DNA from: Helicobacteraceae bacterium
Lineage (GTDB): Bacteria > Campylobacterota > Campylobacteria > Campylobacterales > Sulfurimonadaceae
Assembly (NCBI GenBank): GCA_015493495.1
Contig: WGDB01000008.1
Location: 1-56,411 of the forward strand
Reading direction: 5' to 3'
DNA: 56,411 bases
Notes under the pieces: model-generated
What the model saw: only the letters and a program-made list of their open reading frames with translations
Database searches by the model: none
What the model was told of the DNA's origin: nothing
Program-made: the position numbers and the translations under genes
Part shown: piece by piece, positions 41,284 to 44,501 of the stretch
How the letters are laid out: the number at the start of each line of letters is the position of its first letter
How positions within the stretch are numbered: the stretch's first letter is position 1

Positions 41284-42290
41284 TAAAACAGTACCGAAAA
41301 GGAGAGTATGAACGTGTTGAGATCAGCATCTGAATGAACACTGTACTCACTTTTAAGTGCCATCGAGTACCAGGGCCTATAGGTATAACCAAGTACACCA
41401 AAACCCTCCTCTACCCTAGTACTTCTATCAGCATAGCGTTCCAGCCGTACAATACCAATATGCTGTGGTGTCAAACGGTAAAGCCCCTGCAAATAACCTG
41501 CATAGTTTGTTTGCTGGAGGCGGTCTGAGTAACGCCACCCTACCTCACTTAAAAACTGATAATCCTCTTTTTCATAGTTGAACGAGAGTACCCCGTAGTA
41601 GAGCCTCTCATCAGGACCATCATGAAGGTTAAAATAGCCGGCATTGGCCTTAAGCACAAGGTCATCTAAACCATACGAGAGGCCCAAACCCACATGTTCA
41701 TCAGTATTGTAGTTATTATAGGTTTCTGAGATACCCTCTGTAAACTGGAGCATCACATCTGCACGAAACGAGGCATCACCTATAGTGCTATAACTCAGTG
41801 CTGCACCGGTCGTATACTCAGGGTAGATGATCTCTGTAACAAGAGGGCTTGACGTGGTCTCACGGAGTACATTGATGGGCACAAGGTTCCAAAAACCTAC
41901 AGGCGTGTTATACTTACCAACACGTCCACTAACATGTTCGTTAAAGGCATAGTCTCCATAAAGACGTTCTATCTGTAGTTGATGGTCACTGCTTTCGGAG
42001 ATGGTACCATTTTCATCACGGTAGAGATAGAGCTCTTTATACTCCACCTCAGCCAAATACGAAAACTTTTCATAACTACCATAACCCAGTAAAGAGAGAT
42101 CATCCAAACGGTACTGCTCATAACTTTCGTTGTTTGTGTAGTCTAGCGAGAAGTAACCACCGACATAGAGCGGCAGACTCCCTACCTGTACCCCTTCACC
42201 AAGTTGATACCCATCGTCTGCAGAGAGTGTGCCGTTTTCAATAAATAAACTTAGAACAAATACAAAAAGAAATCGTAACTTTTTCCTCAT
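41283..42290 (-). CDS. Outer-membrane beta-barrel protein (porin-like)
   Basis: A 335-residue protein with a signal peptide (about MRKKLRFLFVFVLSLFIENGTLS), a barrel-like strand pattern and a C-terminal FILSFSVLF. The region LQIERLYGDYAFNEHVSGRVGKYNTPVGFWN is typical of trimeric porin-like barrels that read an oligomeric channel. It is translationally coupled to ApbE upstream (ATGA overlap) and to the PstS-like protein downstream (TAATG). No substrate can be assigned. Confidence 0.72.
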   Translation of the reverse strand: MRKKLRFLFVFVLSLFIENGTLSADDGYQLGEGVQVGSLPLYVGGYFSLDYTNNESYEQYRLDDLSLLGYGSYEKFSYLAEVEYKELYLYRDENGTISESSDHQLQIERLYGDYAFNEHVSGRVGKYNTPVGFWNLVPINVLRETTSSPLVTEIIYPEYTTGAALSYSTIGDASFRADVMLQFTEGISETYNNYNTDEHVGLGLSYGLDDLVLKANAGYFNLHDGPDERLYYGVLSFNYEKEDYQFLSEVGWRYSDRLQQTNYAGYLQGLYRLTPQHIGIVRLERYADRSTRVEEGFGVLGYTYRPWYSMALKSEYSVHSDADLNTFILSFSVLF

Positions 42291-43114
42291 AATATGATCG
42301 TTTTATGAGGCTGTTTCAGACTACTGTCTAACATCAAAGCAGTCGAGTAGACTCCACTCTCTACACAATTATGTGAGATCACACTCACCGACTTGGCGTT
42401 CCCCTCACACTCTTGTGTCTTAATGATATGAGAGTAAACCCTCTCTTCGACCTTATACTGCCGCTCATAAGAGGCAGAAGTAGTCAAGGCTTGATTATAA
42501 AGAGAGACCACCTCAGCATGTTCTGCTGGATTGTCAGGGTTTTTTATACCCACTTTAAAGTGACTGCCATCTGGTTTGGCACCTAAGGCATAGATGTCAC
42601 CACCAAAATTGATAAGTGCAGAACTGATCTTTGCTTTTTTTAAGATGACTACAGCTCTATCAACTGCATACTCTTTGACAAAACCCCCTAGGTCTATCTT
42701 GGTATGGGAATTGTCAAAGACTATCTTGTCTCGCTTGACCTGAAAATGTTCACACCCCACATAAGGTCGTAAAGCTGCGAGTAATGACTCTAACTCTGCT
42801 ACCTCTTTGGCCTCTTTATAGCTGTCTTTAAGTGTGGCCACGGTTATGTCAAAAAGTCCGTCTGTACTTTTGTAGTACTGCTTGGCACGTTTGAGCAGTG
42901 TTTTGGTCTCACTGTCAAGCAGATCTTTACTGCGTGCATTGATCTGACTCAAAAGTGAAGCAGCATCAAAATAGTTATATTTTTTTTCGAGACGTTTGGC
43001 CTCGGTTAGGACTGCTTTGGCACTCTCTTGTGCATGAAGAGGATCATCACTGTAGAGTATGATCTCACAAGGGGTACTCATGACATCGAAATTAAATCCA
43101 TATTTTTTCATCAT
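42287..43114 (-). CDS. apbE: ApbE-family FAD:protein FMN transferase, variant
   Basis: ApbE attaches FMN covalently to a Ser/Thr of target proteins. The 275-residue protein has KIDLGGFVKEYAVD (139-152), INFGGDIYALG (169-179) and YSHII (227-231). Two features are odd. There is no signal peptide or lipobox, although many ApbEs act outside the cytoplasm. In the C-terminal motif, where typical members read E-A-D-A-x-x-T, this one reads Glu252-Ser-Gly-Val-Tyr-Ser-Thr258, with Gly254 in place of the metal-binding Asp. Thr258 is kept. The start overlaps the end of the DUF3570 gene, whose product is the likely target. Confidence 0.85.
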   Translation of the reverse strand: MMKKYGFNFDVMSTPCEIILYSDDPLHAQESAKAVLTEAKRLEKKYNYFDAASLLSQINARSKDLLDSETKTLLKRAKQYYKSTDGLFDITVATLKDSYKEAKEVAELESLLAALRPYVGCEHFQVKRDKIVFDNSHTKIDLGGFVKEYAVDRAVVILKKAKISSALINFGGDIYALGAKPDGSHFKVGIKNPDNPAEHAEVVSLYNQALTTSASYERQYKVEERVYSHIIKTQECEGNAKSVSVISHNCVESGVYSTALMLDSSLKQPHKTIIL

Positions 43115-44295
43115 TAAAAATTATAACGAAATCCCGTTAGAAGTGATACCGCTTTAAGTCCAGTGCTTTGGTCGTAGTAATTTCCACCAAGGTTCACACT
43201 AAAGGCTTTTGTAAAGGCATAACGGACATCGGCCTTATAGGTTACAGCATGAAAATCACTCATGCGGTAGTCACTTGTGGCATAAAGTTCATCTGTAAAG
43301 TAGTTTGATGTGCCATTATAAAAACTGGCCGCACTTTGAGTATAGCCTCTCAGTCCGAGGTTAAACCGCCAAGAGTGTGTAAGATCATAAAAGAGATCGG
43401 TGTCCGCCGTATGTGAACGTACCTCCCAATCATCTTGATAGTAGCGGTACCCTACTTGCAAGGTCAGATCATCTGTAAGCGCATTGGCATAACGCACGGT
43501 ACCACCATAACCACGCCGCTTTTCAGGTCGCTTTTCCCCGACCACATCAGCCGTCACCCCGTTGTTATTACGTACAACATTAAGATAAGGATCTGTCAGA
43601 TAGCCATCATCAGCGATGTAAAAAAGTGCCGCTTTTATATAACTTGTGCGATTTATGTTCTGCATAAAACTTATCTGTGCGTTCACCGCTGTCGCCTGTT
43701 TCTCTTGACTTGCACCGCTACTAGCGTCACAGTTTACCTCGTCCACACATCTTGCAACGATCTCGTTTGACTGAAAAGAGACCCCTAAAGAGAGTGACTG
43801 GTTTTTAGCAGGTGTCAACCAGTGCATATACTCTGCCGCACCGGAGATAGATTCAAAATCATGTTCACTTGAAAAGTCCCCACTAACGATTAATTCATCA
43901 CGGTTGGCAAAACGGCTGGTAAGCATAACACTTCCTGCTGCACGCTGTTCAAAAAAGGAAACATTGCCATACTTAACACGATCTGCAGCGATATTTTTCC
44001 CTCTGGAGTAAGCTGAGGCACCACTTGCGCTATCCACTGTAGTCGCACTGGCACTGCTAACCGTGTCAGCAGCATAATAGGTAGGGCTTGCACCGCTTAC
44101 GGCATCCGCAACAAAAGATGCATTCAGTGTAAAATCTGTTCCAAAGTCTTTATTGATCATGACAGAGGGTGCAGAGACACTGACACGATTGTCATTTTCT
44201 TGATACTGCAGATATTGAAACGTCACATAGTCTTCAGCTTGTGTATTGGCCGCCATGATCAACGCCATGGCAGGAAGTGAGAGTCTTAATTGCAT
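43114..44295 (-). CDS. DUF3570 outer-membrane protein
   Basis: A 393-residue exported barrel-like protein (signal MQLRLSLPAMALIMAANTQA; final strand LLTGFRYNF). The segment DAVSGASPTYYA is diagnostic of DUF3570, a family of unknown function found with ApbE, DUF4266 and thioredoxin genes. The motif Asp-x-x-Ser-Gly-Ala-Ser occurs three times, at residues 64-70, 88-94 and 190-196, resembling flavinylation sites. A Cys pair (RCVDEVNC) precedes the third. I start at ATG 44295, 6 nt after GGAGGAGG; a TTG at 44301 lies against that site. The ribosome site is inside the DUF4266 coding end. Confidence 0.88.
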   Translation of the reverse strand: MQLRLSLPAMALIMAANTQAEDYVTFQYLQYQENDNRVSVSAPSVMINKDFGTDFTLNASFVADAVSGASPTYYAADTVSSASATTVDSASGASAYSRGKNIAADRVKYGNVSFFEQRAAGSVMLTSRFANRDELIVSGDFSSEHDFESISGAAEYMHWLTPAKNQSLSLGVSFQSNEIVARCVDEVNCDASSGASQEKQATAVNAQISFMQNINRTSYIKAALFYIADDGYLTDPYLNVVRNNNGVTADVVGEKRPEKRRGYGGTVRYANALTDDLTLQVGYRYYQDDWEVRSHTADTDLFYDLTHSWRFNLGLRGYTQSAASFYNGTSNYFTDELYATSDYRMSDFHAVTYKADVRYAFTKAFSVNLGGNYYDQSTGLKAVSLLTGFRYNF

Positions 44296-44501
44296 CCGCA
44301 ACCTCCTCCGGCAACACCACCGCCACCTTTAGAAGCCTCTTTCGAGAAGTAGATATGCTCTTCAAACTTGCGCGCGAGTGCATTGCCTCCTGAAGGTTCC
44401 ATCGTCTCTTTAGAGAGGGTCTCTTTCTCCCAAGGTTTCACCTCTTGGACACATCCACTCAGTGTAAGTAAAAGTGCCAGGCTTAAAAATAGTTGTACCA
44501 T
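44286..44501 (-). CDS. DUF4266 lipoprotein with Gly/Cys-rich tail
   Basis: A 71-residue lipoprotein: lipobox LSGC with Cys17, then a short polar region (VKPWEKETLSKETM) and the characteristic end GGGGVAGGGCGCN with Cys68 and Cys70. The vicinal-type Cys pair in a flexible Gly tail could be the partner of the thioredoxin encoded just upstream, or a metal or flavin contact; this is inference. The ATG directly follows the thioredoxin stop. The Gly codons of its tail also provide the ribosome site of the DUF3570 gene. Confidence 0.88.
   Translation of the reverse strand: MVQLFLSLALLLTLSGCVQEVKPWEKETLSKETMEPSGGNALARKFEEHIYFSKEASKGGGGVAGGGCGCN

Follow-up and report, generated by a model that had tools for sequence, protein, structure and literature searches.

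The window, by which we mean the whole stretch of 56,411 nt analysed here (Helicobacteraceae bacterium, contig WGDB01000008.1), carries on its minus strand a gene cluster in which the DUF4266, DUF3570 and ApbE genes follow one another with successive end-to-start overlaps. The DUF3570 gene (44295-43114) encodes a protein of 393 aa with a signal peptide at residues 1-20, which in a profile search matches PF12094 with an E-value of 2.8e-56 and 191.6 bits (curated cut-off 25). Its ATG start is at 44295, and the ribosome-binding sequence GGAGGAGG sits directly 5' of it, within the end of the DUF4266 gene. This stretch (44286-44301) has a double role, as it also codes for the conserved Gly-Gly-Cys end of DUF4266. 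The gene for an ApbE-family FMN transferase of 275 aa (43114-42287) starts in overlap with the DUF3570 stop, and its product matches PF02424 with an E-value of 5.6e-57 and 193.7 bits (curated cut-off 25.6). The two profile matches confirm an ApbE adjoining DUF3570, as an earlier sequence-only reading of this DNA had it. On the other side, DUF4266 is a lipoprotein of 71 aa with a C-terminal CGCN (44501-44286; PF14086, E-value 9.5e-14), and its C-terminal CxC is found in 91 of the 92 sequences among the relatives listed. Next comes an exported thioredoxin-like protein of the TlpA/ResA type with a WCGSC motif (44966-44502; PF00085 and PF00578), for which the ResA-type NCBIfam matches are below cut-off. 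A DUF4266 protein with a CxC end and a thioredoxin-like protein are features shared with flavinylation clusters of the DsbD type.

Regulatory genes stand at both ends, all on the minus strand. The upstream flank is an OmpR-type response regulator (45725-45060; PF00072, PF00486), which belongs to a family also seen near the cluster in other loci and which is the probable regulator of the cluster. At the other end, 42290-40870 encodes two proteins without a Pfam family, a porin-like one of 335 aa and an exported one of 137 aa, followed by a histidine kinase (40870-38813). L129 and L131 have the two Pfam-less genes and the kinase in this order as well, and the Pfam-less pair adjoins DUF3570 clusters in L129, L130, L131 and L145. 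A histidine kinase and an OmpR-type regulator likewise flank the cluster ends in L129 and L131, which suggests that the cluster is under two-component control. For one regulator of the window the nearest matches with a name come from Arcobacter and Sulfurospirillum, which makes an origin in Campylobacterota likely.

The AlphaFold2 model of the DUF3570 protein, built on four sequences, has 16 strands and a mean pLDDT of 66, with most strands at about 75-90, and predicts an outer-membrane barrel. In a fold search the matches are outer-membrane barrels as a class, with MtrB among them but tied with siderophore receptors, so that no close structural relative is singled out. The predicted barrel and the fold matches agree with the outer-membrane location proposed earlier. 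A search of viral contigs found no relative.

Three motifs and a clade-specific cysteine pair

Three D-x-x-S-G-A-S motifs lie exactly where the sequence-only reading had placed them, at residues 64-70, 88-94 and 190-196 (span 43708-44106). Site 1 (DAVSGAS, 44106-44086, predicted FMN acceptor S70) is at the outer end of strand 3, site 2 (DSASGAS, 44034-44014, predicted acceptor S94) is in the long loop between strands 3 and 4, and site 3 (DASSGAS, 43728-43708, predicted acceptor S196) is in the loop that joins strands 7 and 8. AlphaFold2 confidence is low in these site-bearing loops of the barrel. The motifs are thus modelled at a strand end and in loops; burial in barrel strands, which had been named as something that would speak against flavinylation, is not what the model shows. 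The long loops of the model are on one face and the short turns on the opposite face. In outer-membrane barrels the long loops are usually those of the outer face, which puts the three sites probably on one face, the outer one. By sequence there is also a degenerate fourth copy, DTVSSAS, at residues 77-83 (44067-44047), not listed in the earlier reading.

The loop is rich in Ser and Ala and, with its degenerate fourth copy, might be taken for a Ser/Ala-rich expansion without any cofactor. We find this reading hardly credible. In 100,000 shuffles of the mature DUF3570 sequence, sequences of the same composition almost never yield even two motifs (three motifs once, two motifs twice), the motifs are conserved across 31 diverged sequences, and flavinylation of a family member has been shown experimentally. 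None of the other ORFs of at least 100 aa in the window (22,100 residues) includes a D-x-x-S-G-A-S. Together, the shuffles and the conservation rule out an origin of the motifs by chance or low complexity. The codons of the three copies are unlike each other (the acceptor serines are AGC, TCA and AGT), and a recent DNA duplication of one motif is ruled out because of it.

We aligned 96 DUF3570 sequences from the window's order and from the phyla of the Gammaproteobacterium Bacterioplanes (L012) and of a KSB1 member (L013). It had been asked whether the motifs are invariant across the family, and the alignment divides them. Sites 1 and 2 are shared with the family. In the clade to which the window protein belongs, the Gly, Ala and Ser/Thr of site 1 are invariant in all 31 members, and other family members usually have this site too; site 2 reads SGA[ST] in 30 of these 31 and TGAS in one. 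Site 3 is present in 31/96 sequences, all of them from the window's order, and the remaining 65 are gapped there or have unrelated residues, which rules it out as a family-wide site. A tree made without the columns around the sites places the 31 on one branch (SH-aLRT 99). By this distribution, the putative third site is a trait of one clade of DUF3570. Several Pseudomonadota members have SSAS at site 1, and KSB1-type members (L079, L082, L087, L101, L102, L105, L106) have altered motifs, SAAS and TSAT, at both usual sites.

Sites 1 and 2 look like the counterpart of a published pair. Meheust et al. 2021 (PMC8238504) describe two conserved [ST]GA[ST] motifs in 228 ApbE-linked DUF3570 proteins, which are the motifs that sites 1 and 2 supply here, and report flavinylation of the Chlorobium luteolum DUF3570 by the ApbE of that species, which is abolished only when both serines are changed. 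Flavinylation of DUF3570 by ApbE is therefore already published and is not new. The proposal that DUF3570 is an ApbE substrate holds to the extent that this family member is flavinylated at two sites, a result published before and missed by the earlier reading. A follow-up paper on the structures of ApbE substrates does not treat DUF3570, and no third DUF3570 flavinylation site is described in the literature surveyed. We consider it very probable that the window protein is flavinylated at one site at least.

Immediately before site 3 there is a pair of cysteines, C183 and C189 (43749-43729), kept in 29 of the 31 clade members. In nearly all carriers the second cysteine adjoins the site-3 Asp, and in most of them the two are the sole cysteines of the mature protein. 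Nothing else in the barrel is as unexpected as this pair, given that the partner proteins are thiol carriers. One could suppose that FMN is attached at sites 1 and 2 only, and that site 3 and the cysteines form a disulfide-closed loop, for instance a structural or partner-binding one. The published DUF3570 does have two sites, and SSAS replaces SGAS at site 3 in 3/31 clade members. On the other hand, the Asp and the acceptor Ser are present in all 31 and the Gly in 28, so that the full seven-residue motif survives in 28/31 within very different loops, and a structural loop would have no need of it. L001 and L020 lack both cysteines; in L001 site 3 is degenerate too, and L020 keeps the motif without the cysteines, behind an Asp-rich stretch. 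We judge the two-site alternative unlikely, and the use of site 3 for flavinylation likely.

An ApbE without signal peptide or catalytic Asp

The cluster ApbE has no signal peptide or lipobox such as an exported ApbE would carry. Its start is two codons past an in-frame stop and the ApbE domain begins at residue 12, which leaves no room for a signal peptide. A missed start codon is also ruled out, since the window and many relatives have a stop immediately before the start. Aligned to the triad of FmnB (S257/H273/D301), the Ser and the His are kept and the Asp is replaced by Gly. The assignment to the ApbE family holds, that of a canonical active site does not. We compared 46 ApbEs adjoining DUF3570. 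A signal-like stretch is missing from 43 of them, and Gly stands at the position of FmnB Asp301 in 38; signals were called by a simple hydrophobicity rule that is positive for 81 to 95 percent of the cluster's exported partners. Two Gly-type ApbEs (L031, L024) have apparent signal stretches, which lie in parts of the frame that extend backwards into the DUF3570 gene or the spacer. Of 11 Asp-type ApbEs from other places in these genomes, 8 have a signal-like stretch. In the DUF3570-linked ApbEs (such as 42287-43114) the domain also opens with M-x-[ST]-P-C-E where MGT is usual, and a second Cys often lies a few positions ahead of the Asp-to-Gly change.

FmnB Asp301 coordinates both Mg ions, and Ala in place of the coordinating residues greatly reduces or abolishes activity (PMC8906456). 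For an ApbE subclass without the Mg-binding Asp, these data mean that it could be inactive. The lack of an export signal, on its side, suggests attachment of the flavins within the cell, ahead of barrel export. Lacking both signal peptide and usual catalytic Asp, the window ApbE would not act where ApbE acts on NqrC and RnfG, the cases from which the earlier ApbE reading argued; that reading had overlooked the missing signal peptide, the lost Asp and the cysteine pair by site 3.

ApbE flavinylation of exported proteins is generally taken to be periplasmic. An exported, ordinary ApbE could accordingly flavinylate the barrel in the periplasm, with the operon ApbE inactive or modifying something else. 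The window's genome does have an exported Asp-type ApbE (at G000:C39), and the operon ApbE does lack the catalytic Asp. The genomes with one ApbE speak the other way. A single ApbE gene is present in 18 of the 34 genomes searched, and could be read in 17 (in G392 it is cut by a contig end). All 17 ApbEs are signal-less, 15 of Gly type and 2 of Asp type, and a search of these genomes for FMN_bind domains detected none. Eleven of the 17 have a completeness of at least 90 percent and little contamination. An exported ApbE is thus absent from 17 related genomes and is rejected as a general DUF3570 modifier. The operon ApbE, moreover, still has two of the three triad residues, Ser and His, and many genomes have it linked to DUF3570. 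A periplasmic modification by another ApbE is to our mind quite improbable.

Read most simply, the cluster ApbE would have DUF3570 as its substrate and modify it prior to export. Bulky attached groups are able to pass through the Sec channel. We know of no precedent for an FMN-bearing chain passing through both Sec and BAM, which counts against modification before export. In the C. luteolum co-expression the signal peptides had been removed and DUF3570 was recovered from the insoluble pellet (PMC8238504), so an unexported chain can be modified. Whether modification in the window's organism precedes export we regard as evenly balanced.

A proposed thiol-fed flavin conduit

The company that the cluster keeps in related loci fits electron transfer. 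In 13 loci of the window's order (L111, L113, L115, L117, L119, L122, L123, L128-L131, L136, L137) the DUF3570 cluster has as its neighbour a gene for a protein with two to four CxxCH motifs, in most cases immediately 5' of the thioredoxin gene. These proteins are often long, partly propeller-like (Kelch match), or lipoproteins, and one of them matches cytochrome c7 above cut-off and an MtrC/MtrF-like domain below cut-off. The window cluster itself has no cytochrome gene, and no DsbD gene between the flanking regulators; DsbD-type proteins are encoded away from the cluster, with a DsbD_TM domain in a frame of 642 aa. A second DUF3570 cluster of this genome (L124, G000:C39:5000-20000) has the motifs DAITAAS and DAVTGAS and comes with a signal-less ApbE of its own and a divergent ApbE that is exported; nearby is a lipoprotein-like protein of 782 aa that has two CxxCH motifs. 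Neither the direction of transfer nor the acceptor is given by the CxxCH proteins, the Pfam-less genes with their kinase, or the distant DsbD.

As the best explanation, and with somewhat better than even confidence, we propose a thiol-fed multi-flavin conduit of the outer membrane, flavinylated in the cytoplasm before export. The dedicated cytoplasmic ApbE, whose gene overlaps that of DUF3570, would attach FMN from FAD to the preprotein, and the flavinylated chain would then be exported and inserted in the outer membrane. The outer-side loops of the barrel would hold covalent FMN at two family-wide sites and at a third, lineage-specific one. DsbD, the inner-membrane thiol carrier, would hand electrons to the exported thioredoxin, which together with the CxC terminus of DUF4266 would relay them to the loop cysteines and flavins of the barrel; from there they would go on to a surface acceptor, in related strains probably a multi-haem cytochrome. 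For the window protein, we infer the FMN itself, its attachment before export, and the direction and path of the electrons.

In favour of this explanation are the flavinylation of the C. luteolum protein, the conservation of site 3 (31/31) and of the cysteine pair (29/31), the placement of the motifs in the model, the signal-less Gly-type ApbEs, the single-ApbE genomes without FMN_bind, and the thiol-carrier, DsbD and cytochrome genes. Against it are the ApbE without Mg-binding Asp, the exported Asp-type ApbE in the window's genome, and a window cluster without a cytochrome gene or an adjoining DsbD. Ser is also a poorer FMN acceptor than Thr. A bolder version, in which a cytoplasmic ApbE subclass with a changed active site attaches up to three flavins before export, the export and barrel-assembly machineries handle the FMN-bearing chain, and the third flavin with an adjacent redox-active disulfide makes a thiol-to-flavin conduit across the outer membrane, we advance tentatively. 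If the ApbE does act in the cytoplasm, even an outer-membrane barrel would receive its cofactor ahead of export. The genomes with only this type of ApbE make the idea directly testable.

Comparison with known systems

The published cluster (PMC8238504) has a thioredoxin-like protein, DUF4266 with a CxC end, DUF3570 and ApbE, often with DsbD, and 316 such clusters have no DsbD. The window has the same four genes and the two [ST]GA[ST] sites. It differs in its third conserved site and cysteine pair, in a thioredoxin of TlpA/ResA type in place of PF13899, and in having no DsbD adjoining. The text of that paper does not discuss a signal-less ApbE for DUF3570. New here are a third site accompanied by two cysteines, and an ApbE in which the signal peptide is absent and Gly replaces the catalytic Asp. 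The cytoplasmic ApbE of Klebsiella pneumoniae, which serves a soluble fumarate reductase (reviewed in PMC12052999), is also without signal peptide, but its substrate is cytoplasmic, whereas that of the window is an exported outer-membrane barrel, and unlike it the window ApbE has Gly for the catalytic Asp.

MtrB is likewise an outer-membrane barrel that forms part of an electron conduit. It surrounds a multi-haem protein, and we know of no flavinylation of MtrB. The fold match to MtrB of the MtrCAB porin-cytochrome conduit (6r2q; Z 17.9, rmsd 5.3, 310 aligned) is tied with many unrelated barrels and indicates a fold class only. Multi-FMN_bind proteins (PMC8238504, PMC10339131) resemble the proposed barrel in having several covalent FMN groups on one extracytosolic protein; they have one FMN per soluble FMN_bind domain, whereas DUF3570 would have several loop sites and no FMN_bind domain. 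A thiol-fed flavin conduit would add an outer-membrane electron route beside multi-haem cytochromes and soluble multi-flavin proteins.
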